Below, one piece after another: positions 3,191 to 64,000 of a stretch of 64,000 bases of DNA. Both the position numbers and the translations under genes were made by a program. Source of the DNA: Basidiobolus meristosporus CBS 931.73. Taxonomy: Eukaryota; Basidiobolomycota; Basidiobolomycetes; Basidiobolales; Basidiobolaceae. Numbering within the stretch: the first letter of the stretch is position 1; each line of letters begins with the position of its first letter. The notes beneath the pieces are model-generated. The model searched no databases and was not told the origin of the DNA. It was given only the letters and a program-made list of their open reading frames with translations. Where the stretch lies: contig MCFE01000091.1 of assembly GCA_002104905.1 (NCBI GenBank), positions 112,313 through 176,312 of the forward strand, read 5' to 3'.

Positions 3191-6100
3191 AAGAACCTTC
3201 AACCATGTTGAGACCCTTGAGCATAGTAACATTTGGGGATGAGCTTGAAGAAGACTCAGAACTCACCTTCCATATGACAGAAGAATACCTATCCCAGATG
3301 GCCTTGAACACAGGAAAGCTACTATATTTGAATGGAGTAATTGATGGAGTGCCTGCCAAGATTGTGATTGACTCAGGAGCATTGCATGAGTACATGTCAG
3401 AGCAATTTGCTTTGAAGGCTGGAATCAACTTGGAAACCAACAAATCAACTTTATTGCCAACAGCAGAAGGGAACTCTCATATAATCAACTATATTACACA
3501 GCTACTGAGGATAAAGATCAATAACTATGAAGATGACCTATATGCCTATATGTTTGGGAACTGCAGGTTTGACCTTTTACCTGGAAAAATCTAGCTAATC
3601 CTTCCACTCCAGCACCCCAGAAGGTCCCGGCCCCCTTGAAGGAACATTCAGATGTATTCCCAGATGAACTTGCAAACCTACCACAAGTCAGAAATGTATA
3701 TCATGCCATTAACACAAGAGATAGCACACCAGTGAGTAAGACACCTTACAGAATGAGTCCATTGAAGTTGGAAGGGATGAAGAGATAAGTTGATCATTTA
3801 TTAGAGCAAGGATATATCAGACCCAGCAAGTCACCTAGGGGAGCACCAGTGCTTTTGTGAAAAAGAAGGATGGAGAACTTAGACTGTGCATTAATTACAG
3901 AGACCTCAACTTGGTTACCATGAAGAATAAGTACCCTATTCCTTGGATTGATGAGCTTTTGAACTAACTCTATGGAGCTGCCATATCCTGAAAGATTGGC
4001 CTTATAACAGGATACTATCAGATTAGGGTGAGACAGAAGTCATCCCTAAGACAGCATTCAGGACTAGTTATGGATATTGCAAGTACTTAGTCATCAGTTT
4101 TGGCCTTGCCAATGCCCTTGCAACATTCATGGCCTTGTTGTAGACTGTCTTACAGGAGTACTTTGAAAAGATTGTGATAATCTACCTAGATGACATACTG
4201 ATATACACCAGGACAGAAGAGGATCACTTGATCCACATTGAAAAGGTCTTGAAGAAGGTAAGAGAGAACAAGCTATATGGAAAGCTGCCCAAATGCAAAT
4301 TCTTCAAGGAACAAATTGAATATCTGGGACACATAGTGACTAGTGCAGGAGTGATCTTAGACCATAAGAAGGCTAAAGTTATCAAGAATCTCAAGCATCC
4401 CTATAGCATAATAGAACTCAGATCATTCCATGGAATGGTCTCCTTTTGTTGGAGATTTGTCAAGTCCTTTGCAAGTATTGCAGCCCCTTTGACCAATATC
4501 CTCAAGAAAGACAACACCTTCAAGTGGGACAAAGCCTGTGAGACTGCCTCTTAGACTCTCAAAAATGAACTTGCTAAACTGCCACACTTAAGAATACCTG
4601 ACTTCAGAGAGAGTTTACTTTGAGCACAGATGCTTCAGATTATGCAATTGGGGGAGTGTTGAGCCAAGAACACAAGGGAAAGGACTGCCCAGCTGCCTCT
4701 GAATACAAGAAACTGAACTCAGCAGAACAGAACTTTCCAGTGCAGGAGAAGGAGATGTTTGCTATAATTCACTGCTTGAAGACATGGAGATGCTATATAG
4801 AAGGAGCCATATGCACTGTGACAACTGATCATGCCTCCCTCAAATATATATTTACTCAGAAGGTACTCTGCAGAAGTATGACAAGAAGGAGTGAATAAAC
4901 TCAGCAATTTGATTTGGAGATTGTCCACTGCCCCAGGAAAAACAACACTTATGACTTATGGGATATAGCCAGCGCAACTGCCTTATGGATGCTCAAGAAG
5001 GAACTTGCTAAGCCACCAAGTTTAGGAATACCAGACTTCAGAAAAGTGTTTACTTTATGCACAGCTGCTTCAGACTATGCAATTGATAGAGTACTGAGCC
5101 AAGAACATGAGGGAAAGGACTAACCAAGTGCATTTGAGTAGAATAAACTGCACCAAGCAGAATAAAGCAATTCAGTGCATGAAAAGGAGATACTTTCCAT
5201 AATACACTGCTTGAAGACCTGGAGATATTGCATTGAAGGAGTCAGGTGCAAACTGTCCATGCCTCACTCAAGTATACATTGGACTTGTTCCATCATTCCA
5301 GCTGATCATAGTGCCCAATTGTGCCATAGCATGCCAGATGGAGCATCATCATGCCACAGAGTGCCGGATGCGCCATACAGTGCCAATTTGGGATCAAAAT
5401 TGACATGCATATGACCCTAAAATATCAAATTAATAACAAGATATACAGCACTTTCTGGCACTATGATCAATGGCACAATGGAACAAGTCTATTTACTCAG
5501 AAGGTACTATCAGAAGAATGTCAAGATGGAGTGGATAAATTCAGCAATTTGACTTGCAGATTGTCTACTGTCCTGGGAAAAGCAATACAGTTGCTGATGC
5601 CTTATCAAGATTAGAACAAGTTGCACAACGCAACCTGGTGCATGTATTGGATTGGCCTAGCTTATTACGAAAGTACTTGGATGACTAAGCCATTCATAAT
5701 GAGTTAGATGAAGAGATTAACAAGAAAATCCAGGATGAAGCCAGCAAACCATTAATACAGGATTGAAAACTCCACCAAATTGTTGATGGAAGCCATATTG
5801 CCTATTGCCCTTATGTTGCTTGCCTAGATTTGATGCATAAGCTACACAAGGTATATGGACATCTTTGAATTGAAAGAACTTATAGCTGTGGGAATGCCAG
5901 AGCATGGTGTCCAAGAATGAAGCAAGATATTGAGAAGCTAGTGATAAAATGTCCAAATTGCCAAAACAACCAAGACAACCACTAAGAGTTATTTACTCTT
6001 TCTCCTGGAGCCTGTAGGATCATTTGAGAGATGAGGAACTGACTTTACTGGAAGACTGCCAACCACTAGGAAATACAACTTTTGGATACTAGTAGGAATT

Positions 6101-13918: not shown

Positions 13919-16900
13919 ATGTCTACTACTGCTATTACTGGAATTTTTCCCTCTGCTGAAAAGTTGGATGGATCTAACTACCAAGTGTGGAGGGTGAAGA
14001 TGAAGATGCTGCTACAAGAAAGAGGCCTTTAGGATATTGTCATGGGAGAAGAATGCCCTCCTAAAAATGTGGGAGAGGAAGCCTTAAAGTACCAGAAGAA
14101 AGAACAAAGTGCCTTTAACTGCATATGCCTTAATGTTGAGGACAAATTGCTAATTCAATGCTCAAGAGCAAAAACGGCAAAGAATGCCTGGAAAGCATTA
14201 GAAGACACCTACCAGTCATGTTCAGCTGCCAAGAAGATGTATCTGAGATGAAAATTCTTTACTACAAAGATGCTGCCAGGAGAAGAAATGAAAAATCTAA
14301 TTAACAGAATTACCCTGCTGGTAGATGAGATGGAATCTGTGGGCATACCAACTAGTGATGAGGATGTAATAGTTACCATCCTGAATAGCCTGACAGACAA
14401 GTTTCAGGGCCTTGTATCAGCCCTAGAGTCCAGAACTGAAGATTTGACCTTAAATTACGTATATGGAAGGCTCCTGGATGAAGAATTAAGAAAAACAAGC
14501 ACCAATAAGAAGGAAGAAGAAAATGCTTTAATAAGCAATGATAACCAACAAAGGAGGTACCCAAGACCCTACAAAGGCAACAGCAACCTGTTTTGTAACT
14601 ACTGCAAAAGGAAAGGACACACATCAGACCGGTGTCTCAAAAAGAGAGATTATCAGCAAAAGAAGCCTGAATATGGAAATGCTGCAACAACTGAAGATAG
14701 ACTATTCATATCTGCACTAAATATGACCACAAACAAGGATTCTCAGACGTGGTATATTGACTCTGGAGCTTCTCAACACTTTACACAACAAAAAGAACTT
14801 TTTACCCAATATCAAGAAATTCCAATTAAGAAGGTTTTCATGGGTGACAATAGAACACTTGATGCAGTGGGAGAAGGAACTATCCAAGTAAACCTTAGAA
14901 ACAGTGAAGGAAGCCATACACTGACCTTTAAAGAAGTACTCTATGTACCAGAAATAGCCAAGAACCTACTCTCTGTAAGCAAGGCCACAGCAGAAGGACT
15001 CAGTTTTAGTTTTGACAATTCTGGATGCAGGATCACTGATCAAAATGGTGCTCATATTGCTTTGGGCATCAGAGATCAGAATCTATACAAGCTGACTTAT
15101 ATTCCATCATATCTGGAAGCCAATATAAGTAACTTAAATGAAGAAACATCAATGCTTTGGCACAGGAGATTTGGACACATTAATTTTGATTATTTGCGTA
15201 AAATGATCAAAGATCAGCTAATTTCTGGAGTGAAAATTGATCCCCCAGCTAATTTGGAGCACTGTGAAGCCTGCATATATAAGAAACAAGCCAGACAACC
15301 ATTCAAGAGCTCTGGGTTAATCAAAACTAAGAAAAAATTAGATCTAATTCACTCAGATCTGTGTGGACCTATGCAAAATTTATCCTTAGGCAGGATGAAG
15401 TATTTAATCACTTTTATTGATGATTATACAAGATACACATGGGTCTACTTCATGGAGAGAAAGGAAGAAGCTTTGTCTAAGCTCAGGGAGTTTAAAGCCA
15501 TGGTGGAGAGAGAAACTGGTGAAAAAATCAAGAAAATACGCTCTGACAATGGTAGAGAATATACCTCAAAACTCTTCATCCACTTCTGCAAAATTCATGG
15601 GATAAAGCAAGAGACTACTGTACCATACTCCCCACAGCAAAATGGAGTAGCAGAACAAGCTAACAGATCAATAATTGATATGGCAAGATCTATGATCCAT
15701 GATCAAAATTATCCTATGATTTTTGGGCGGAATCAGTTGCCACTGCTGTATACCTTAACAATAGGAGTTATAACGGAATACTTTGTGATTCTACTCCATT
15801 TGAAGCATGGTATGGATACAGACCAAGTGCAGAACATCTAAGAATATTTGGGTGTACAGCATATGCCAAAAAACTGGCCGGAAATCAGTCAAAATTTGAG
15901 CCAAAAAGTGTAAAATGCATATTGTTGGGCTATTGCAATGAGAGTAAGGCATACAGACTCTACAATACCAAAGCAAAGAAGCTTATCAAGTCCAGGGATG
16001 TGTTGTTTGATGAAAATTCAAAATTTTCACAAAAAATGACATCAGATGATGACAAAAATTTGATCTCAAGTCCACCAATTGTCATGATTGAATCAGAGCA
16101 AAACAATGAAAATTCTTTCACTCCAGAGGACTCAACAACCATGGTTCAGCCAGAATCAGTGCCCAGGAATATCCCAGAAGTGATCATTCCAGTATCAAAT
16201 GCCTGGAGATCAAATCGGACAAGAAATAGCCCAAATTACTACATCAATGAGGGTACAAACTTAGCCTATGCCTATTCAGTCCATATTGATGAACCCCAGA
16301 CTGTAAAAGAGGCCCTAAATAGCCCTCAGACAAAGTTTTGGAGATCTGCAATGACTGAGGAATATCAGGCACTGATGGAAAATCAAACTTGGGACTAAAT
16401 CAAATTACCAATCAACCAAAAATCAATTGGATGCAGATGGGTCTTCAAGACAAAATACAAGGCTGATGGTACAATTGAAAGATACAAAGCAAGACTTGTA
16501 GCCAAAGGATACTCTCAAACAAAAGGACTTGACTATACTGAGACGTTTGCACCGGTAGCCAAGTTTAATTCCATCAGATTAATTTTGGATATTGCAGCCA
16601 AATATAAGTTTTTTATTCATCAAATGGATGTAAAAACTGCATTTTGAATGGAGAACTTGATGAGGATGTTTATATGGACCAGCCTGATGGGTTTGTTGAC
16701 CAAAATAACCCCCATTTGGTCTGCAAGCTTAAAAAGTCACTATACGGTGTGGTAGGGTAAACATACCTCCCACAGACAAATTTATTCATATAGTCATTAT
16801 GATATACTTATCCATATTTTATCTTATCAGTATTATCCCGTTCTTCTTTTGCCCATATTATCAGTATTATCCCCATATGATGTTTACCCTGATTAGTTAT

Positions 16901-18660
16901 TAGCATTAGTTATCCCAGATGTTATTCAGCTTTGTGATCAGTAGATGTATCTATATAAGGCAAGTACCCGCGTCAGTACCTGTGACACATGACCTAGGTT
17001 TGTGTTACCATCCCTACCATTTCAATACCATTTATGGTATTTCTATGTTGCACAGGTTTCAGACTACTGATTCCTGATTGGTTGAGAGTGCTGTGCCTTT
17101 TAGAACCTTCCTGGACATTCTTGGCATATTTTTTAGCTCATAGTGATGTCATCAAGAATTCCACTGATACCTAGAATCTTCTAGAACCTTGTCATTAGTA
17201 ATCACTTGGCAATCAGGAAAAGTATTTAAGGGAAAGCAATCCCTCATCAATAAATCATCCCTTCTATCAGTAACACTTCTCCCTTATTGATTAGCAGTTG
17301 ATCACTGCACCTGCCTTCAACAGTACATCTCAGACCTGCCATCAAGGAGCTTTTCAAGGTAGTGTACAAGACACACAGAGGCCTTTGGAGACACTTGGAG
17401 CACCTAGGAAGCTAGAGAAGCAGGAGCTTTTACTATAGAGACATACTGACAAAGACACCAGCAGTTTAGACCCAGAGGTTATTGCACCCATCAGACACCT
17501 CACACACCTTGAGTTGTGTAGCTTCTCCCAGGAGTACCTCTACACCACCACAACAGTCTCAAACAATCACCAAGAGCCTGGAATTGCAAGATAGATTCTT
17601 ATTTGGAATCTTTGAGTTTCAAAAGGAGTAATGCTGACTATAGTACATACTATAAGCCAGATAGAGCAAATCCAGTTCTATTAGCTCTATGTGTGGATGA
17701 TCTTATTATAGCCGCCAATAACCTGGAAACATTGGAAGAAACTAAATCCAGACTATCTAAGGAGTTCAAGATGTCTGATTTAGGAGAACTTAGTTTCTAC
17801 TTAGGGATTAAGTTCTCCATAGACAGAAGTACCCAGACTATCACCCTAAGCCAATCCAAGTATATTCAAGATATACTAAAGAAGTACAAAATGGAAGACT
17901 GTAAACCGGCAGCTACCCCAATGGAGACAAACCTTAGCTTGGTCAAAACTCAACCAAATCAAGAGAGCTTGGTGCCATCTGAAAGCCCTGACTTTCCTTA
18001 TCAATCTATGGTCAGCAGTCGGATGTATATCATGCTTGGAACACGTCCAGATATCTCATATTCAGTGGGAGTTGTCAGCCAACATAATCAGAACTATGGA
18101 TCTGATCATATTGCAGCAGTTAAGCGGATTTTGAGATACCTAAAAGGAACTGCTGATATCTGCTTAAGATACACTTATAAGGATTCAGAACAGGACCTTG
18201 TGGGATACTCTGATGCTGATTGGGGACAAAATTTGGAAGACAGAAGATCCACCACAGGATACACCTTTCTTTACTGTAAAGGAGCAATTTCATGGAATTC
18301 AAGAAAGCAACCAACCGTAGCACTTTCTACTACAGAGGCAGAGTTTATGGCAGCCTGTGAAGCTACAAAAGAAGCAATGTGGTTAAGAAAACTCTTTACA
18401 GATTTAGGCCTATGTCAAAAAACACCTATTACTTTATTTCAAGATAATTGAGGATGTATACAATTAGGTAGAAATCCAACTTTCATGCTAGAACCAAGCA
18501 CATAGATATTAGACATCATTTCATATGTGAATCTATAGAGAATAACTTAGTTAGCTTAGTTTACTGTCCTACAGATGAAATGATTGCAGACATATTTACC
18601 AAACCATTAGCTAGAGACAAATTTGAATATCTTAGGTCAAATTAGGGCAGGTCAGTATGA
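13919..18660 (+). pseudogene. Copia-B gag-pol (stops, frameshifts, nested LTR)
   Basis: A single polyprotein frame starts at ATG 13919 (MSTTAITG). Gag is of the UBN2 type (LDGSNYQVW), with a knuckle CNYCKRKGHTSDRC at about 14593-14634. Protease has YIDSGASQHF (about 14755). Integrase has its zinc region (about 15160-15300) and the D, D and E residues in HSDLCGP, RSDNGREY and NGVAEQ. RT and RNase H follow (17603-18451, CVDDLIIA in place of YVDD; YSDADWG; ALSTTEAEF). In-frame stops lie at 14030 (TAG), 14249 (TGA), 16396 (TAA) and 18449 (TGA). Frameshifts occur near 15735 and 16647. An 805-bp LTR interrupts RT. Not functional. Confidence 0.92.
16748..17552 (+). repeat. Solo LTR of a third family inserted in Copia-B RT
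   Basis: 805 bp beginning TGTGGTAGGG and ending CACCACCACA (inverted repeat TGTGGT/ACCACA). It splits the RT codons between SLYG and LKQSPRAWN. Removing it plus four bases restores the frame. Flanking ACGG (16744-16747) and ACAG (17553-17556) look like a 4-bp target duplication with one change. TATATAAGG lies near 16953 and AATAAATCAT near 17249. No internal region. Confidence 0.8.
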
Positions 18661-19028: not shown

Positions 19029-21139
19029 GATAACACACTGTACAGTTGGAATGTACTTGTCCCAATTCTACTTGATACCTCTGATAGATTTCCTGATGAA
19101 GTTCACTGATGTCCGAACATGTCTTTCAGCAAGTCCATTAGCCTTGGGATGATAGGGAGTCATCAGCCAGTGGCCAATGGTGCTATTCTGGCAAAGGGCT
19201 TTGATCATGTGATTCACAAATTCTGTTCCATTATCCAATTGAATGACCTTGGGGAATCCAAATAGGCAGAAGAGCTTGAATAGTTCTTGTGCAATTGTGG
19301 CAGCATACTTGTCTGGGATAGCTTTGAAGAAGATAAACGTGTGCAGACATCCGCAATCATAAAGAGGTGGTGATTGTCATCATCACTGGTGGTGAAAGGG
19401 CCTGCTAGATCAATTGCAATATGATCCATAGGAAGGCTTGTATGGATGGGACTCAAAGGGTGAAATCCATGGCAGCTGATATTGTAAAGTTGACATTCTC
19501 TGCAAGACTTGATAAACTCTAGGCAGTCAGCTTTGTTGTTTGGCCAATAATATCCATCAGAGTGTAGCTTCTTTGTAAGTATGTCAGCTCCAAAGTGGCC
19601 AAGTAAATGACTCTTCTGTATCAATGTTTTCCTTTCATTGGCTTGCAGGATTTTTAAAGTTGCTGAATTCAGTTGAGGAATTATTTTGGAAGCTGTAGTG
19701 AGCTTACTGATTATGTCAGTAATCACATGTCTCTCCCAAGGTGAAGTTGGGAAAAGTCTTGAAAGGTGGTAAGGCAGGATGTTGAGGATTCTGGAGCAAT
19801 GAATAACTGTATGGTCATAATCAAGTAGAGTATTAGGCCAGTTGGTGAGCATTGGAGTCAGAGTCTTTTGATTGTAAATGTAGACAAGGCTTGATGGTCA
19901 GTATACAAGGTAAGCAGATTACCATTTAAGTACTGATGAAACTTCTTTAAGGCAAAGACAATAGTAAGTAGCTCCTTCTTGGTGGCAGAGTAGTTTCTTT
20001 CAGCAGATTGTAGTGATCAGGCTTGAAAAGAGATCCAGTGAGGCAGATTTTGGTCTTCATCCTGGTATAGGACAGCCCCTAACCCAGCATTAGATGCATC
20101 TGTAGCAACAACAAAGGTCTTGGTAAAGTCTGGGTTGGATAGGGTGGGTGCTTGTGGGAGCAACTGGCAGAGTGACTCAAATACTTGATCATGAACCTTG
20201 TTCCAGGCTGAGGGAAGACCAGAACTATGGCATAATGCATCCAAAGGGGCACTCAAAGAGGGCATGAGAGGAATGTATTCCCTGAAATAATTGAATACTC
20301 CAAGATAATGATGCAGTTGCTTAGCGCTAGTGGGTTTTGGCCATTCAGGAATATTGACCAGTTTGAAAGGGTCAAGTTGATGGCCATCTGGTGTGACTAT
20401 GAATCCAAGTAGATTGATTTTGAGGCAAGCAAAACTGCACTTTTCAGCATTAAGAATCAGTCCAGTGGCTGTCAGTCTATTGATGACATCAATGACATGA
20501 GTTACATGATCATCACAGCTTGTAGAAAATATGATGATGTCATCAACATATACTAAGGTGTATGGTGCATTCTGGAGTATTTTAGTAATGACACTCTGAA
20601 ACTTGCTGGAAAGTGTCTTTAGGCCAAAGGGAGCTCCCTGAAACATCCATTGCATATTATTCCAAGTAAAGGCAGTCTTATACTGATGATTAGGATGGAT
20701 CTGGAATTGGTGATATGCATCCTTCAAGTCCAATTTAGAAAATACTTTTGTGCCTGATGGTGAGGAAAAGATATCCTGGATTCTTGGAACTGGAAATATA
20801 TCATTTTGGATAAGTTTGTTCAGAGGTCTAGGGTCCAAACAGGGTCTCTTCAGAGTTAGATTTCTATTTGTATCCTTCTTGGGTGCAAGCCTCAAAGGGC
20901 TGTTGAGTGTTGTGTTGACTGGGGCTTGAGTGATAATTCCACTGTCAGCCCACTTTTGGACTATTTCATCAACTAAGTGTTGACAAAAATGTGGAATGGG
21001 GTATTGCCTCCTCTATGATGACTCACCAGGTGGGGTTTCTAGCGTAACAATGGATTCTGGAATAGTGCAGAAACTGTTCCTAGGATGGTGTAGAGTTTTT
21101 CTCAGGACAGGCTGGTGATCTATGTCCCATCTTTCCACA
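19029..21139 (-). pseudogene. Gypsy-2 pol (RT, RNase H, integrase; inactivated)
   Basis: Minus strand. A 292-codon open stretch (20895-20017) carries RT: FSKLDLKDAYHQFQIHP, the YVDDIIIFS box and GFIVTPDGHQLDP. RNase H starts at ATDASNAGLGAVLYQ. A second 212-codon stretch (19852-19214) holds the integrase zinc-binding part (HFGADILTKKLH...CRECQLY) and the first catalytic Asp in IDLAGPF. The core continues across the copia insertion to 13033-13538. Stops separate the open parts. It is clearly distinct from Gypsy-1. Confidence 0.88.
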
Positions 21140-22231
21140 TTAAAAGCATTTGTCATCAGCATATGGATTATCAGTTTTGGCATTTTGCTGCTTTTCTGAC
21201 GTGTTTCCTGACTTGTTTGACTGCTCAGTGATGCCTTTGCATTCACTAGTAGAGTGATAGCATCTTCCATGAAGCTCACAATGCTTTGTAGTGGTTGACT
21301 TCTTCTTGGTCACATGACTGCTCTCTTTTCTGGTTGTTGCTGCATCTTGAGTGGAGTTGCCTGAAGCCTGGCTAACAGCCGCAGTCATGGTGATTGCAAG
21401 TGTGCAAATCTCTGAAAGTTTGTCATAAGTGCATGCAGGGTTGCATGCTTTGACAGTAGCAACATTGCTCTGTAGCTGGTCTGAAAAGTTTGAAAGAAAA
21501 TGAGAAGTAAGCAATGGATTGCCATCACTAACTCCAGCTGTTCTCATTTGTCTCTAGAATATATCACAGAAGTGTTGTACAGATTCACTTTGTTGCATTT
21601 TAGTTTTCCATAGGTTGCAGTTTAGATGCACTTTGTTAGGTGGATCTTCAAAATGGCCACAAGAGAGGTTCTGGGCAACTTCCCATGTACTATTGGAAAA
21701 AATTCTCACTTCAACCCAGTCAGCATTTTGCATGGTTAGACACTGAGGCAGAAGTCTAACCCAATTGATGTTGGGGACTAGCTAGTGCGTAGCTAAGACA
21801 TGACTAAACTTGTAAAAAAACTCAGTAGGATTCCCTATGGCATTGGCTCCTTTGGCATAAAGAGGCAAGGATCTTGGGACAATCACTGGGGCAGGTTCAG
21901 AGGGAGATGTAGATCTGTAGGATCTAAAAGCATGACTTCTTGGCAGCTGATGCAGAGCAAGGCTTGGCGGATTTTCAAGGCTATCAAGTACAATGGCAAC
22001 ATTCTCCAAAGCTTCTTTGATAATTCCAATCTCATCTTGGTAACCAGAAATAACTTCAACAAGTTCATATCTACAATGACTATCAGATCTTGTATTGGCA
22101 AGCTTTGAGTGCTCAAGCATCAAAGTGTTTCTTTCATGCATGATGTTTTCAAGCTGCTCAGTTAGCTCTTCCTGATTTCTGCAGGCTTCTTCCAACATGG
22201 AAAGATTTGGATTGCTTGCTGCTGAGGACAT
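21140..22231 (-). pseudogene. Gypsy-2 gag (inactivated)
   Basis: Starts at ATG 22231 (MSSAASNPNL), with a predicted coiled coil (LEEACRNQEELTEQLENIM) and a capsid-like centre. A stop at 21782 breaks the frame. The C-terminal part (21547-21140) has a CELHGRCYHSTSEC cluster, the compact Cys/His form often seen at the end of fungal gypsy Gag. Confidence 0.75.
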
Positions 22232-22272
22232 ATTGTAAAGCAGTTGAATGTAATGGAATTCAACAAAGAAAA

Positions 22273-22970
22273 TGTTGCATCCAAAAGAAAAGTGCAATAA
22301 ACCCTTGAATGAGTTAACTGAACCTGAGCAACAACTAAGTGCAGAATCTTAGAATTGTCAAGGGTTATAGAAATATTAGCAGAGAAGTTCTGGTCTAATA
22401 GTGGCTTTGTATATAGTTGAGTTGGGCTATAAAGGCAACAGAGTTGGTTGGCCATAGAGGCTAGGCTTGGTGTTTTTGGGAATGCTATATATGCTAGGCT
22501 TGGGTAGAAACTAGAACAAAATTGTTGAATTCTTAGTTTTGCAGAGGCACAATCTTAATTTTGTTGAGATACACACTAAACCAAAAGGTTTAGGAAGCTT
22601 TATTTATACTTTTCCAATCAAGTTGAATTAGTAAGCACCAAGACACTGGACTAATTGAAATCTGTTGGGGTGTTGATAGATGCATAGGATAAATGAAAAT
22701 TTGCATCATTAATTGGCTGATGTCTTGGCAACTGCTAAGTGGTTGGATAGATTGCAGATGACTAATCACTTGGAAAGGCTTAGCAGATTAGTTGAGGACA
22801 TAATGACCACATGAAAATTGATCAGGTGTGACAGCTAAAAATAGATTCTGAGAAGTGATAAAATAAAGCATAACTGGGATTAGTTATGTTTGGGATTGGG
22901 AAGATCAGTTAGGGTACTAGATTTTCTAATGGAGTAAAATAGGTTAAGTATTAAGTGTTGATGCACAACA
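22273..22970 (-). repeat. Gypsy-2 5' LTR
   Basis: 698 bp. The plus-strand ends are TGTTGCATCC and GCACAACA. Other copies are a solo LTR at 24005-24683, an inverted shorter copy at 28767-29285 and a fragment at 59882-60178. The minus-strand TATA-like region lies near 22600. Confidence 0.85.
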
Positions 22971-35930: not shown

Positions 35931-35948
35931 CCCTAACCCTAACCCTAA
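35931..35948. promoter_or_regulatory. Telobox cluster in the RPL37 promoter
   Basis: CCCTAACCCTAACCCTAA, three telomere-type hexamers about 155 bp upstream of the RPL37 start. Further CCCTA motifs lie nearby (35876, 36001). Telobox (TTAGGGTT/AAACCCTAA) sites control ribosomal-protein genes in plants and, through Tbf1-type factors, in several fungi. Confidence 0.65.
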
Positions 35949-58475: not shown

Positions 58476-58806
58476 TGTTGTAAAAATTTGTAATTCCACC
58501 TAAATATTCACCTAACTTAGTCACTTAGATCATACCTTCAGATCCTAGAGAATACTGACCAAATTCCTTGTCAGGATTTACTCAGAATATTTACCCAGAA
58601 CATGAAAATTTGATAAGTTGTCCAAACAGCCCCAAGCTTTGCACACATGTTCTTGGAGCCTTCCTTAACCTATTCTACATGTTTGCTATGCCAAGACCAT
58701 GTAAAAGTATAAATACTACTTTTACATTCAACAATTCAACAAGAGAAGCCACATAATCTACTTGTCCGCCCAAATCACTTCCAATATTTCCAAAACTCTT
58801 ACAACA
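58476..58806 (+). repeat. Copia-B solo LTR
   Basis: 331 bp, TGTTGTAAAAATTTG to CTCTTACAACA. Flanks CAAAG (58471-58475) and CAATG (58807-58811) are a target duplication with one change. Confidence 0.85.
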
Positions 58807-58867
58807 CAATGAACATGTGTGTAAAGCTTGGGGCCCTCTGAATCAATGGTGATTCTTGGCTGATACC

Positions 58868-59213
58868 TGTTGTAATATTCTGAGGAGTATTAGAAGTGAT
58901 GTGGAGAACCAGAAGATTTACATGTAATTCACTTGTAGATTTATTGATCAAAAGTATGTTATATATACTTTCAGTAGAGTAGAGCAAACAAACATGTAGA
59001 GTTTGCTAAGGAAGGTCCCAAGAATATGTGCGCCAAGTTTGGGGGCTTTTGGACAACTTTGAGAAAGATCATAATCTGGGTACCTGATAATTGGGTAAAA
59101 ATATTCTAAGTAAATCCCAACAAGTAATTTGGTCAGGACAGAATGCTAATCAAAGAGTAAGATCTATGTGACTAATCTAGCATGAATATTTTGGTGACAA
59201 CTTAAAATTACAA
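58868..59213 (-). repeat. Solo LTR, family C
   Basis: 346 bp, TGTTGTAATATTC to AAATTACAACA, with a perfect target duplication ATACC at 58863-58867 and 59214-59218. Confidence 0.88.
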
Positions 59214-59510
59214 CAATACCATGCATTCATTCTGTTTCTGTACTCTAGTAAATCACAGGATAATTGCCCAAGTAATACTAATATGCCATGGTTCACTGTT
59301 CCATATCACTTGAAGATATGTTAGCCAATGTGAGAAAAGGGTGTCACCAAATGTGCAGTGGTGAGTAATATCCAATAGGTGCTTGTTGTGCCACAACATT
59401 CTTGTAATGAGAGACATGCATTGTAATATCTAATGTGAGGAAGGAAGGTTTATTTACCCAAATTGCAGATAGAACAATCAAGGGGAAGGAAGCAAATTAG
59501 GAGAAGGTTA
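59214..59510. other. Unassigned spacer before the telomeric array
   Basis: AT-rich, no recognised feature. Confidence 0.35.
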
Positions 59511-59857
59511 TGGGAGAGACAGCTATAAATAGGTGAAATTTTTTCCAGCTGAAACAAAGAAGCCAGCACTAATGTTGTAACCTTGATACAAGATGTGTAG
59601 CTGAGGGGTATTGGTAGATCAGTTAATAAGAAGTGATGATAGTTCTTCAGTGCTCAAGACACTATTCAGTGGGAAAGGGGGGAGCAAGAGGGGTAAGAAT
59701 GATTTGCAAACAACATTAATAAGAGAAATATGATAGGGATTGATATTCATCATAAAGGGAGTGTGCTGTTTCAGATATTGCTGCCAAAGGTCTGTCAAAT
59801 ATTTCAGGTAGGCCAGTTTGGGTTTTCTGACTTCACAATATATTGAGCAAACTTAAG
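59511..59857 (-). mobile_element. Telomeric array unit 1: LINE type 3, 5'-truncated, decayed
   Basis: Matches the 3' UTR and C-terminal ORF part of the unit at 61299-61824 but with stops. Its 3' hairpin is worn (AGCTATAAATAGGTGA). Its truncated 5' end meets GGTTAGGTTAGGGGGGAG at 59855-59872, i.e. telomere-like repeats followed by the tail of another copy. Confidence 0.65.
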
Positions 59858-59881
59858 GTTAGGTTAGGGGGGAGATGGTCA

Positions 59882-60178
59882 CTGCTATATCCAAGAAAAA
59901 AGTGTAATAAAACTCTTGAATGAGTCAACTGAACCTAAGTGACAACTAAGCACAGAATCTTAGAATTGCCAAGAGTGACAGAAATATTAGCAGAGAAGTT
60001 TTGGTCTAATATTAGTTTTGTATATAGTTCAGTTGGGCTAAAAAGGCAACAGAGTTGGTTTGCTATACCGGCTAGGCTTGGTGTTCTTGGGAATACAAGA
60101 TATGCTAGGCTTGGGTGCAAACTAGAATGGAATTGTTGAATTCCTAATTTTGCTGAGGAACAATCTTAATTTTGTGGA
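59882..60178 (-). repeat. Gypsy-2 LTR fragment inside the array
   Basis: TGCTATATCCAAG to TTAATTTTGTGGAGAC aligns with the first 300 bp of the Gypsy-2 LTR. The rest of the LTR is missing. Confidence 0.75.
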
Positions 60179-60180
60179 GA

Positions 60181-60799
60181 CAGGGGAGGGAAAGTCACCC
60201 AGGGAGGTGAAATCTTTATTTGATTTCAGACTAGTCTAACTACAAATAAAGAAGCCAGCTGGGTATAGAAGATTCCCAAAGTAAACACTAAGTTGAATAT
60301 GAATTATTCTAAGCTAAAGTTAAGGCAGTATTGCAGAGTACACTGGAGTTCAGGATCATGGGGGAGTGAAGTGGATAAGCTTGAGAGATATAATAATCTT
60401 TGAGGAAGTGGATAACTGCAGGTGAAGGGGAGCTTTTGATAAGTGGAGTGAGTCTTGAGATCAGAGATTCCTCTAATGAGAAGGTCTTGTAAACTGGAGA
60501 ATCAGGAAACTCTTTAAAGGCATGATCAGTAGGTTCCAAGCAAAATTGGTCAGACACATTTTGAGAGAATTGTTTGGCAATATTTTTGTCAAGTACTACC
60601 TCCAGAGTATGATTGTTGATAAATCTCATGTTAACAATCCTGGATAAATTGTAACCTGGTTGCTTGAGATACATCCTATGCTCAGATATAGCAATAAACT
60701 CCACAATGGCAAAGTGGCAGACAGCCCAGCCAGTAGCAGGAGGCAACTCAGAAGTGGCAGGAAACTTTCTTTTAGTCTTTGTAGGAGCAGCAGTATGTC
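60181..60799 (-). mobile_element. Telomeric array unit 2: LINE type 1 (ORF1), 5'-truncated
   Basis: Minus strand: ORF part 60821-60309, with the genuine element part starting about 60797 (170 codons including readthrough from the neighbour). It is homologous to unit 7's ORF1 (GYNLSRIVNMRFINNHTLEVV), then a 3' UTR and a tail with TCACC/GGTGA hairpin (about 60195-60210). The 5' end stops inside ORF1 and abuts TTAGGG (60800). Confidence 0.75.
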
Positions 60800-61298
60800 T
60801 TAGGGGGAGGAAAGTCACCAAGTGGTGAAATCTTTATTTACTTATGACAAGTATCTAAAGAAGCCAAGTTAATTTGAAGTAATTCCTAGAAAGCTAGGTC
60901 TGAGAGTTGAGAAGCTGAGTGGTACTATATTTCCTAGTTAGCTAGGTCTGAGAGAGGTTTCCTGGAAAGCCAGGCCTGAGAAGTGAGAATCTGAATATAT
61001 CTGAGCTAAGTTATACTGGTTTGCGGTAGCTGGATTGTGGCCGGAAAGGCCAGTAGACTGGGGGAACTGAGATGAATTTCTGGGCGATCACTGGCCAAAT
61101 TTACTAGGCAAATCTGGCCATTAGCATTTCAAGGATTTCAGCCAATCAGAGCCTTTACTTTGCCCGATGGTTGATCAAGCCATCTCCCAATGAGCACACA
61201 TCAATTTATTAATCAAATTTTTGCTGGATCCAGGATTTGAACCCACAACCATGGGTATGGAAGGGTTAGGGATAACCACAAGGCTAAGTGTTCTTGGG
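60800..61298 (-). mobile_element. Telomeric array unit 3: tRNA-derived SINE
   Basis: Minus strand, 5' to 3': tRNA-like head with A box TAGCCTTGTGG (61286-61276) and B box GGTTCAAATCC (61243-61233), a body with three small hairpins (60974-60885), and a tail AATAAAGATTTCACC shared with the LINE units. Begins on the plus strand at TTAGGGGGAGG. No ORF. Confidence 0.8.
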
Positions 61299-61824
61299 TT
61301 AGGGGGGGAGACAGTCACCAACCGGTGAAATCTTTATTTCAGTTGAAACAAAGAAGCCAGCGCTACTGTTGTAGCTTTGATACAAGAGTGTGTAGCTGAG
61401 GGGAATTTGTAGGTAAGTTAATAAGAAGTGATGATAGTTCTTCAGTGCTCAAGACACTGTTCAGTGGGAAGGGGGGTAGCAAGAGAGGTAGGAATGACTT
61501 GTGAACAACATTAATGAGGGGAATGTGATAAGGATTGATATTCATCATAAAGGGAGTGTGCTGCTGCAGATATTGCTGCCAAAGGTCTGTCAAGTACTTC
61601 AGGTAGGCCAGCTTGGGTTTTTCTGACTGCAGAATATAGTGAGCAAACTTCTTGACTTCAGGATCTCCAAGTATAGTTCTCCAGCAGGAGTCAGGTGTAG
61701 TGTGGTGTGTTCTCTTCCAGGCCTTAATCAGTGGGTTGTTGCAGTTGTGAAGTCTGAGGTATAATCTGGTTCTAAGGTAGAGAAGTCTGATCTTATAGGG
61801 CATAAACCCAAAAGCACCAAGAAT
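61299..61824 (-). mobile_element. Telomeric array unit 4: LINE type 3, 5'-truncated
   Basis: Contains a 146-codon frame (61803-61363) that reads as the end of a larger protein, so the element is 5'-truncated. Tail with AATAAAGATTTCACC and hairpin TCACC-loop-GGTGA (61315-61328), then TTAGGG at 61299. Its 5' end abuts TTAGGG (61825) of the next unit. Confidence 0.75.
61363..61803 (-). CDS. C-terminal piece of a LINE-type ORF
   Basis: 146 codons, MPYKIRLLYLRTRLYLRLHN..., rich in Leu/His/Lys, with RTHHTTPDSCWRTILGDPEV and YLKYLTDLWQQYLQQHTPFM. The 'start' Met is internal, and the frame is open only because of truncation. A decayed homologue sits in unit 1. No catalytic motif is present. Its position directly before the 3' UTR of a LINE-like element suggests the end of ORF2, but this is an inference. 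Confidence 0.45.
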   Translation of the reverse strand: MPYKIRLLYLRTRLYLRLHNCNNPLIKAWKRTHHTTPDSCWRTILGDPEVKKFAHYILQSEKPKLAYLKYLTDLWQQYLQQHTPFMMNINPYHIPLINVVHKSFLPLLLPPFPLNSVLSTEELSSLLINLPTNSPQLHTLVSKLQQ

Positions 61825-62351
61825 TTAGGGGAGGAAAGTCACCAAGTGGTGAAATCTTTATTTACTTATGACAAGTATCTAAAGAAGCCAAGTTAATCTG
61901 AAGTTATTCCTAGAAAGCTAGGTCTGAAAGATATCTTCCTGGTAAGCCAGGTCTGAGAGTTGAGAAGCTAAGTGGTACTATATTTTCCTAGTTAGCTAGG
62001 TCTGAGAGAGGTTTTCCTGGAAAGCCAGGCCTGAGAAGTGAGAATCTGAATATATCTGAGCTAAGTTATGCTGGTTTGCGGTAGCTGGATTGTGGCCGGA
62101 AAGGCCAGTAGACTGGGGGAACTGAGATGAATTTCTGGGCAATCACTGGCCAAATTTACTAGGGAAATCTGGCCATTAGCATTTCAAGGATTTCAGCCAA
62201 TCAGAGCCTTTACTTTGCCCGATGGTTGATCAAGCCATCTCCCAATGAGCACACATCAATTTATTAATCAAATTTTGCTGGATCCAGGATTTGAACCCAC
62301 AACCATGGGTATGGAAGGGTTAGGGATAACCACAAGGCTAAGTGTTCTTGG
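61825..62351 (-). mobile_element. Telomeric array unit 5: tRNA-derived SINE
   Basis: Near-copy of unit 3 but with an extra body hairpin (four instead of three). A box 62340-62330, B box 62297-62287 (minus strand). Same tail and TTAGGG junction at 61825. Confidence 0.8.
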
Positions 62352-62881
62352 TTAGGGGGGGGAGGAAAGTCACCAAGTGGTGAAATCTTTATTTACTTAT
62401 GACAAGTATCTAAAGAAGCCAAGTTAATCTGAAGTAATTCCTAGAAAGCTAGGTCTGAGAGATATCTTCCTGGTAAGCCAGGTCTGAGAGTTGAGAAGCT
62501 GAGTGGTACTATATTTCCTAGTTAGCTAGGTCTGAGAGAGGTTTCCTGGAAAGCCAGGCCTGAGAAGTGAGAATCTGAATATATCTGAGCTAAGTTATAC
62601 TGGTTTGCGGTAGCTGAATTGTGGCCGGAATGGCCAGTAGACTGGGGGAACTGAGATGAATTTCTGGGCAATCACTGGCCAAATTTACTAGGCAAATCTG
62701 GCCAATTAGCATTTCAAGGATTTCAGCCAATCAGAGCCTTTACTTTGCCCGATGGTTGATCAAGCCATCTCCCAATGAGCACACATCAATTTATTAATCA
62801 AATTTTGCTGGATCCAGGATTTGAACCCACAACCATGGGTATGGAAGGGTTAGGGATAACCACAAGGCTAAGTGTTCTTGG
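62352..62881 (-). mobile_element. Telomeric array unit 6: tRNA-derived SINE
   Basis: Very close to unit 5, same four hairpins (62440-62558), A box 62870-62860, B box 62827-62817. TTAGGG junction at 62352-62357. Confidence 0.8.
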
Positions 62882-63765
62882 TTAGGGGAGGGAAAGTCAC
62901 CAAGGTAGGTGAAATCTTTATTTGATTTCAGACAAGTCTAACTACAAATAAAGAAGCCAGCTGGGAATAGAAGATTCCCAAAGTAAACACTAAGTTAAAA
63001 ATGAATAAATCTAAGCTAAAGTTAAGGCAGTATCCCAGAGTACACTGGAGTTCAGGTTCATGGGGGAGTGAAGTAGATAAGCTTGAGAAATATAATAATC
63101 TTTAAGGAAGTGGATAACAGCAGGTGAAGGGGAGTTTTTGATAAGTGAAGTGAATCTTGAGAGCAGAGATTCCTCTAATGAGAAGGTCTTGTAAACTGGA
63201 GAATCAGGAAACTCTTTGAAGGCATGGTCAGTAGGTTCCCAGTAAAACTGGTCAGAGACATTTTGAGAGAATTGTGTTGCAATACTTTTGTCAAGTACTA
63301 CCTCCAGAGTGTGATGGTTGATAAATCTCATGTTAACAATTTTGGATAAATTGTAACCTTGTTGCTTGAGATACATCCTATGCTCAGATATGGGAATAAA
63401 CTCCACATTGGCAAAGTAGCAGACAGTCCAGTCAGTAGCAGGAGTTAAATCAGAATTGGCAGGAAACTTTCTTTTAGTCTTGGGAGGAGCAGCAGCATGT
63501 CTTGAGGGAGCAGGAACAGGCTTTTTGACAGCTTCAGAGTAGGAAGAGTGAGCAGGAGCAGGTGATTCTTGGGGAGTCTTGTTGACAGGAAGAGTTGGCA
63601 CAGGGACAATAGATTCTTGCAGATCAGAAAAGGCAGAGAACAACTTTTGAACTTGTTTCTTGAGTAGAGCATTTTCAGCTTCAACAAGTGCAAGCCTTTC
63701 CTCAAGGAAGGAAATCTGAAGGGAATGGAGTGAAGGCATAAGATATAAGAAGAAGAGGGTTGGAT
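62882..63765 (-). mobile_element. Telomeric array unit 7: LINE type 1, terminal copy with intact ORF1
   Basis: Starts (plus strand) at TTAGGG 62882-62887. Minus strand: ORF1 63739-63011, about 125 bp of 3' UTR, then the shared tail with hairpin TCACC-AAGGTA-GGTGA (62897-62912). Its 5' side is directly capped by G-rich degenerate and then perfect telomere repeats. There is no room for an ORF2. Confidence 0.75.
63011..63739 (-). CDS. ORF1-like protein of the telomeric retroelement
   Basis: 242 codons, complete, ATG 63739. Residues 8-45 form a leucine-rich coiled coil (LEERLALVEAENALLKKQVQ) suited to oligomerisation. A Pro/Ser-rich linker with a basic cluster (PKTKRKF, about 93-99) follows. The globular C-terminal half (WTVCYFANVEFIPISEHRMY to SPAVIHFLKDYYISQAY) may be an RNA-binding domain. 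Coiled coil plus basic linker plus a globular domain is the layout of many LINE ORF1 (Gag-like) proteins, but no zinc knuckle is present. A second, truncated copy in unit 2 is mostly conservative at protein level. The start lies only about 40 bp from the telomere repeats. Confidence 0.6.
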   Translation of the reverse strand: MPSLHSLQISFLEERLALVEAENALLKKQVQKLFSAFSDLQESIVPVPTLPVNKTPQESPAPAHSSYSEAVKKPVPAPSRHAAAPPKTKRKFPANSDLTPATDWTVCYFANVEFIPISEHRMYLKQQGYNLSKIVNMRFINHHTLEVVLDKSIATQFSQNVSDQFYWEPTDHAFKEFPDSPVYKTFSLEESLLSRFTSLIKNSPSPAVIHFLKDYYISQAYLLHSPMNLNSSVLWDTALTLA

Positions 63766-64000
63766 GGGGTGGGTGGGTGGGTTAGGGTTAGGGTTAGGGT
63801 TAGGGTTAGGGTTAGGGTTAGGGTTAGGTTAGGGTTAGGGTTAGGGTTAGGGTTAGGGTTAGGGTTAGGGTTAGGGTTAGGGTTAGGGTTAGGGTTAGGG
63901 TTAGGGTTAGGGTTAGGGTTAGGGTTAGGGTTAGGGTTAGGTTAGGGTTAGGGTTAGGGTTAGGGTTAGGGTTAGGGTTAGGGTTAGGGTTAGGGTTAGG
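63766..64000 (+). repeat. Telomere, TTAGGG repeats
   Basis: From 63780 to the window end about 36 units of TTAGGG, with two TTAGG variants (near 63827 and 63940). It is preceded by degenerate G-rich sequence (GGGTTGGATGGGGTGGGTGG, 63757-63778). G-rich strand runs 5' to 3' toward the right, as expected for a right chromosome end. Confidence 0.97.

Follow-up and report, generated by a model that had tools for sequence, protein, structure and literature searches.

At one contig end of the early-diverging fungus Basidiobolus meristosporus CBS 931.73, we describe a head-to-tail array of several kinds of retroelements that probably insert specifically at telomeres. The stretch analysed, hereafter the window, comprises the 64,000 nucleotides (nt) C1213:112313-176312, and contig C1213 ends at position 176312; the genome sequence, for which PacBio was used according to PMC7466969, has 89,006,234 bases in 1311 contigs. 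In the window, the terminal TTAGGG tract is preceded by 4.3 kb of consecutive minus-strand units, every one with its 3′ end toward the centromere. We consider telomere-specific retrotransposition of a long interspersed nuclear element (LINE), of gag-only elements and of a short interspersed nuclear element (SINE)-like sequence, with priming by the GGG-3′ end of the G-strand, insertion at short ends and re-capping by telomerase, to be the probable origin of this array (roughly 80%).

Eight units lie across window positions 59512-63781, seven of which were delimited by BLAST against single genomic copies and the remaining one (unit 2) by reading the gap. They represent the LINE (units 1 and 5), a gag-only element (units 3 and 8), the SINE-like element (units 4, 6 and 7) and another type (unit 2). 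The features, with identities to one reference copy per family, are the following, where ORF denotes an open reading frame, aa amino acids and RRM the RNA recognition motif.

Unit 1, 59512-59854, minus strand: 5′-truncated 3′ end of LINE-a, 87.6% identical to one LINE-a copy (reference 3844-4190).
Unit 2, 59866-60178 (start approximate), minus strand: tail CAGTGACCATCTCCCCCCTAACC, family not assigned.
Unit 3, 60184-60801, minus strand: 5′-truncated gag-only element A, 92.9% (reference 403-1020 of 1020).
Unit 4, 60803-61297, minus strand: SINE-like, both ends kept, with an internal deletion, 93.0% (reference 3-526 of 526).
Unit 5, 61304-61824, minus strand: 5′-truncated LINE-a with the end of ORF2 and the 3′ tail, 99.0% (reference 3670-4190).
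Unit 6, 61828-62353, minus strand: full-length SINE-like, 97.5% over reference 1-525.
Unit 7, 62358-62883, minus strand: full-length SINE-like, 99.0% over reference 1-526.
A and B boxes of unit 7, 62818-62870, minus strand: tRNA-like boxes of the 5′ head, TAGCCTTGTGG (A) and GTTCAAATC (B), as identified in the SINE copy of locus L071.
Unit 8, 62886-63781, minus strand: gag-only element A, 95.5% (reference 125-1020).
ORF of unit 8, 63011-63739, minus strand: 242 aa, with a predicted long N-terminal helix, RRM-like domain and C-terminal helices; homologue of LINE ORF1.
3′ tail of unit 8, 62886-62935, minus strand: two hairpins and a C-run; units 3 to 7 end in related tails.
Terminal telomere, 63779-64000, plus strand: TTAGGG repeats at the end of contig C1213.

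TTAGGG is present at most unit borders, and the five unit starts at TTAGGG given in a preliminary description of this DNA agree with the junction sequences. The polarity, orientation and terminal tract (63779-64000) of that description also stand, whereas its seven head-to-tail units become eight, and the single retroelement type that it implied is replaced by several families, including gag-only and SINE-like ones. Its view that the units are mostly 5′-truncated holds for the LINE and gag-only copies but not for the three SINE-like units, which reach within 2 nt of the reference start. Unit 1 is the most diverged copy of the array, and its distal border, at approximately 59856-59868, reads GGTTAGGTTAGGG; the border between units 2 and 3 (60180) lacks TAA and reads CCCCTGTCTCC in the orientation of the element. 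A stretch of unit 2 recurs in loci L016 and L020 (locus L061 corresponds to the window itself). Unit 5 codes for the C-terminal 148 aa of ORF2, and unit 8 is cut within its 5′ untranslated region (UTR), where it is joined to the terminal telomere. In this one array, measured against single-copy references, the proximal units are 87.6, 92.9 and 93.0% identical compared with 99.0, 97.5, 99.0 and 95.5% for the distal ones, a gradient expected if new units join distally.

Genome-wide, five families, namely LINE-a, a second LINE (b), gag-only elements A and D and the SINE-like element, end in a common tail of two hairpins and a C-run. This tail reads GGCUUCUUU (one of eight GGCUUCUCU) followed by AAAUAAAGAUUUCACC-N4-6-GGUGA, a short stretch, and the C-run. 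Both stems form in eight representatives of the five families, with 97.3% of cells paired compared with 37-47% when the pairing is slid, and one stem pair is A-U in four representatives, G-C in three and, by hand alignment, C-G in the LINE. The main evidence for the tail is the conservation of this block among otherwise different elements. Exact matches to the tail number 1646 genome-wide, against 0 for its reversed sequence, which is above chance.

The sequence beyond the tail is telomeric and has a fixed orientation. CCCTAA located 4-24 nt after the tail gives 1859 pattern matches, in which one tail may count repeatedly, and TTAGGG in its place gives 2 in the whole genome; among the first 93 of the 100 tails listed (up to C90:10236, the last 7 being left out), CCCTAA follows within 24 nt in 82. 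The tail lies on the minus strand in 1508 of the 1646 cases, and (TTAGGG)8 is found 5821 times in forward and 62 times in reverse orientation (total 5883), so that polarity goes with the telomere side, imperfectly. Copies scattered through chromosome arms were looked for: among 100 tails listed, all 37 on the 11 contigs longer than 100 kb lie at most 22,134 nt (22.1 kb) from the end faced by their 5′ side, and for the remaining 63, located on contigs no longer than about 20 kb, distance is little informative. Target, polarity and end localisation thus agree with the earlier proposal that a fungal retroelement system inserts into TTAGGG repeats or is copied onto chromosome ends. Twenty contig ends were examined: 11 had 21-32 TTAGGG repeats within 199 nt, one had a single TTAGGG and eight had none, several of which stop inside elements; the end of C80 that was read is opposite to that of its elements. 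The loci were chosen by element match, and the share of ends lacking elements cannot be read from them. The same proposal had telomerase capping each round; a telomerase domain is present in the genome (Telomerase_RBD, 40.5 and 34.7 bits, in two neighbouring pieces on C880), and such capping may occur. In almost every contig that bears a telomere, the telomere is on the right, and about 200 telomere ends are estimated from four fully listed contigs (12, 17, 41 and 37 matches). Telomere repeats terminate contig C424 (312,558 bp; L038, L135) on either side, which means that the genome includes at least one very small chromosome.

Longer LINE copies elsewhere in the genome contain ORF1, an in-frame UGA-CUA, and ORF2 with an apurinic endonuclease (APE)-type endonuclease and a reverse transcriptase (RT). 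Between its flanking stop codons, ORF2 spans 922 codons in L071, L072 and L073, and its C-terminus is open, without a stop, in all 150 rows scored of 1349 candidates; the presence of at least 150 near-identical LINE 3′ ends (at least 98% over 148 aa) suggests recent activity of the LINE. ORF2 of L071 matches RVT_1 in Pfam at 8.6e-26. Its AlphaFold model has a mean predicted local distance difference test score (pLDDT) of 73.5, and most of the first 210 residues score above 70. The model matches human L1 ORF2p; among single domains, its matches include APE1 and 1wdu, the endonuclease of TRAS1, to which the predicted N-terminal domain aligns with an E-value of 5.6e-8 and a template-modelling score of 0.68 on the target. 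The first Asn, GDxN and SDH are retained in the endonuclease alignment, and the RT is closest to L1 ORF2p among solved structures. Penelope-like elements have a GIY-YIG or no endonuclease and an RT of their own type. The comparison with them made in the preliminary description is not borne out, and a Penelope-like identity was rejected in view of the predicted APE-like fold and the LINE-like RT, nearest to L1 ORF2p. Membership of the CRE clade with MoTeR and FoTeR was likewise rejected, as neither of the C-terminal motifs CCHC and RHD/N of the restriction-enzyme-like (REL) endonuclease, taken from section 16 of PMC12857005, is found in the 922-codon ORF2 of L071.

The five closest relatives of ORF2 have 48-80% identity, and the best named matches after them are aphid proteins at 27-30%, one of which, P0074 (27%), is named jockey. 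Proteins of Basidiobolus ranarum match two proteins of the system (P0078, 48%; P0085, 44%), and P0002/P0079 as well as P0001/P0080 each seem to be a pair on one contig. LINE b is known from ORF2 3′ ends (L022, L046). ORF1 has an N-terminal zinc ribbon (CPNCGNKG...FLCKC), also present in P0081, P0082 and P0084, and weak coiled-coil-type Pfam matches under the cut-off. It stops at UGA, after which ORF2 continues in the same frame and lacks any ATG up to about codon 145; this single frame over UGA-CUA is found in L071, L072, L073 and L139, and the entry P0001 begins with M about where ORF2 follows the stop. A search pattern that allowed every codon in the stop position gave 129 matches in the genome, with TGA in all those listed (the first 100 or so), a constancy of limited evidential power because the copies are young. 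UGA-CUA is a favoured context for readthrough. ORF2 may be expressed by readthrough of the UGA, or else by reinitiation at a non-AUG or near-cognate codon. In L137, the zinc ribbon of ORF1 resembles those of bacterial transposases (Zn_ribbon_ISL3 and Zn_ribbon_InsA, both under the cut-off), and the LINE-a 5′ UTR repeat is doubled.

The junctions between elements and telomeric sequence bear on how insertion occurs. In the fetched loci, 169 of 177 distinct junctions were measured, eight odd-tailed ones being left unmeasured and one near a locus edge dropped. A C-run, ranging in length from 1 to 11, is present at 169 of the 177, followed by TAA or more in 133 of 169, and poly(A) was found neither at the 169 C-run junctions nor at the eight odd ones. 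Telomeric sequence after the C-run is shorter than 6 nt at 92 of 169 junctions, where the second CCC is incomplete, and shorter than 9 nt at 135 (median 5, maximum 91, at least 30 nt in 4), so that there is mostly little or no telomere between consecutive units. Terminal telomere tracts measure 77-249 nt (34 rows, some overlapping, bounded by the contig end). The DNA adjoining them is a family member at all 22 distinct telomere-terminal junctions, in loci chosen by family, and in 7 of the 22 the adjoining element begins with CCC, which is also telomeric sequence.

One way to place elements at such sites would be that of TRAS, in which the ORF2 endonuclease nicks the G-strand within ordinary double-stranded repeats, either with a preference for the first repeats or with repeats lost later. 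The predicted APE fold with TRAS1 endonuclease among its matches, the retained N, GDxN and SDH, and the few long inter-unit tracts (4 of 169 at 30 nt or more, up to 91) agree with nicking, whereas random nicks in tracts of 77-249 nt would rarely leave the fewer than 9 nt seen at 135 of 169 junctions, and the active-site Glu is replaced by Asp; we lean against this route while keeping it as a real possibility. Alternatively, RNA would be copied onto an eroded or fresh chromosome 3′ end with no nick, as for HeT-A and TART, an explanation to which we give even odds. It accords with the polarity of the array, with the 92 of 169 junctions lacking a complete second CCC after the C-run, and with the greater divergence of proximal units (87.6, 92.9 and 93.0%) than distal ones (95.5-99.0%) in one array, but the APE-like domain has been kept and the state of the end at insertion is not seen in these sequences. 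The short inter-unit tracts fit a free or newly seeded end, unlike random nicks in a long tract.

Under telomere-specific retrotransposition as we propose it, an APE-type LINE lineage would supply RT not only to its own members but also to two gag-only elements and a small SINE-like RNA, and the enzyme would recognise all of these RNAs by their common 3′ tail of two hairpins and a C-run. First-strand synthesis would be primed from the GGG-3′ end of the TTAGGG strand, paired with the C-run of the RNA, and G-strand priming of this kind leads to copies whose 3′ ends face the centromere. Insertion would take place at very short or newly seeded telomeres, with few repeats distal to the previous unit, and telomerase would then re-cap the new end. 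We infer four of these steps, namely priming, mobilisation in trans, tail recognition by the RT and telomerase capping.

The companions of the LINE can be described as follows. The single protein encoded by gag-only element A has 242 aa; its alignment to the C-terminal half of ORF1 covers 162 aa with 35% identity (E 2e-21). AlphaFold, run with four sequences (mean pLDDT 72.6), predicts a long helix at the N-terminus, followed by a beta-alpha-beta-beta-alpha-beta domain and then by further helices, which is the domain order of L1 ORF1p; a Foldseek search with this model gave no significant match. Counting overlapping loci, 21 of the 24 start sites with sufficient sequence among the fetched loci are intact, and the ratio of nonsynonymous to synonymous polymorphism (pN/pS) is 0.30 over 18 distinct intact ORFs (153 pairs), where the restriction to intact copies excludes nonsense changes only. 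This ratio shows past purifying selection on the element A protein. In the other gag-only family, D, the ORF found in L035 encodes 266 aa, and the copy in L029 has about four tandem copies of an approximately 104-bp 5′ UTR repeat containing CCCTAACCC.

The SINE-like element is about 526 nt long and has no recognised gene product. The A box has one mismatch to TRGYNNARNNG and the B box is an exact GWTCRANNC, these being the consensus sequences of the two boxes, and their starts are 44 nt apart. Such a pair starting within the first 25 nt occurred in 0 of 5000 dinucleotide shuffles, and anywhere in 24 of 5000; ARAGORN found no tRNA in the window. In the fetched loci, 75 near-full-length rows (58 distinct sequences) have a median identity of 98.9% to one copy.

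Recombination could instead have built most of the array from few insertions, by break-induced replication or unequal exchange among ends. Break-induced expansion is documented for MoTeR arrays in PMC7367193, and tandem SINE-SINE pairs do exist, but the difference between neighbouring SINE copies is 0.4-4% (in 18 rows, some of which represent one and the same place), families are mixed, and truncation points as well as C-run lengths vary, and we regard this origin as unlikely. Simple tandem duplication, which the preliminary description had named as an alternative, was rejected, since families, truncation points and junctions differ between units. That the array is an assembly artefact is suggested by the 1311 contigs and by the eight of 20 ends without TTAGGG, several stopping in elements; against this, 11 of 20 ends have 21-32 TTAGGG in 199 nt, C424 is telomeric at both ends and many contigs share the same types of junction, which makes an artefact very improbable.

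Several observations weigh against telomere-specific retrotransposition in the form proposed, or against parts of it. CCCTAA is missing after 11 of the first 93 tails listed, and the plus strand holds 138 of the 1646 tails, compared with 62 of 5883 (TTAGGG)8 matches in reverse; two of these tails are close to the start of C80, where no telomere shows. C726, with otherwise minus-strand copies, has one plus-strand LINE copy some 10 kb into the contig. The tail offers thin covariation: a single base pair is altered on both sides, the score is reached by 9 of 500 shuffles, the count of pairs altered on both sides is equalled in 451 of 500, and two of five measures are not above shuffles. Asp stands where endonucleases of this type usually have their catalytic Glu, likewise in P0001 and P0003 as far as they extend, and the Exo_endo_phos_2 match of L071 ORF2 (3.6e-4) is under the Pfam cut-off, for which reasons nicking by the predicted endonuclease is uncertain. 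A tRNA covariance search of the SINE head, made with one copy (unit 7), gave no match at E up to 5, and the fold of the head is not better than that of shuffles. Later repeat loss could be the origin of the short inter-unit tracts. Finally, the system is known here from genomic sequence and predicted structures, with no transcript, protein or new insertion observed.

Telomere retrotransposons are known from insects, and from few fungi with a different endonuclease. TRAS and SART of Bombyx mori resemble the Basidiobolus LINE in their APE-type endonuclease (predicted here), their telomere-repeat target in fixed orientation and their two ORFs. They require the 3′ UTR for retrotransposition, as stated in PMC7265360 and PMC4700185, and Bombyx telomeres are described as carrying full-length copies only (PMC4700185), unlike the Basidiobolus array with its many truncated ones. 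The system described here further differs from TRAS and SART in the fungal host, TTAGGG, the C-run instead of poly(A) at the junction, the gag-only and SINE-like companions and the N-terminal zinc ribbon of ORF1. HeT-A, TART and TAHRE of Drosophila likewise have their 3′ ends toward the centromere. Their host has neither telomerase nor short repeats, unlike B. meristosporus with its TTAGGG tracts and telomerase domain, and in contrast to those elements the gag-only ORF here is a diverged ORF1 (35%). The likeness to them extends to mixed arrays at chromosome ends with a gag-only element next to an RT-bearing one with related Gag, as outlined in PMC4700185.

Among fungal elements, MoTeR1 and MoTeR2 of Pyricularia and FoTeR of Fusarium are similar in host kingdom, TTAGGG target and truncated copies. 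MoTeRs are reported to be arranged head to tail and separated by short TTAGGG tracts, with a spacing of half a repeat to more than 20 repeats (PMC7367193), and the FoTeR 3′ end is followed by TAACCC, with the same polarity as here, typically as 3 to 7 repeats (PMC12857005). They differ in their REL endonuclease and group with CRE and SLACS, and the accounts given in the cited parts of PMC7367193 and PMC12857005 mention no SINE partner; MoTeR2 is an RT-less partner too, but is described there as carrying an unrelated 786-bp sequence without obvious function, in place of a gag. In stringent LINE/SINE pairs, such as those of UnaL2 and zebrafish LINEs, the SINE has the 3′ stem-loop of the LINE (cited parts of PMC4176376, PMC5135761 and PMC6510757). 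As in such pairs, the 3′ tail here is common to the LINE and the SINE-like element, but here the gag-only class has it as well. To our knowledge, these LINE/SINE pairs are not telomere-targeted, and we know of no fungal description of telomeric LINE, gag-only and SINE-like elements combined.

The system works like TRAS and HeT-A/TART, and is outside the REL-type MoTeR and FoTeR. An early-diverging fungus that keeps a telomerase domain thus has ends occupied by an APE-type LINE with gag-only and SINE-like satellites, in parallel with both silkworm and Drosophila telomere elements. The sharing of a chromosome end between one RT and telomerase, the rise of RT-less gag elements at telomeres and the way a SINE gains strict target specificity could all be tested through it. 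We further advance, tentatively and at a little short of an even chance, that the array represents a retrotransposon-based second system of end elongation beside telomerase, in which the LINE RT, primed by the free G-strand, adds LINE, gag-only mRNA and a SINE of RNA polymerase III type to nearly bald ends; if true, this would include the first telomere-specific SINE.

Other repeats occur in the neighbourhood. The sequence at window positions 58476-59216 might be a DNA transposon: it has two arms in inverted orientation (58592-58685 and 58989-59082, 77% identity), and its start also adjoins a gag-only copy in L013. The ORFs at window positions 14270-18451 and 19214-22297 look, by eye, like Copia-type and Gypsy-type long terminal repeat retroelements, and a Copia-like stretch is also close to the end of C424 (L138). 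A lone CCCTAACCCTAA is found at window position 35931, inside the chromosome arm.

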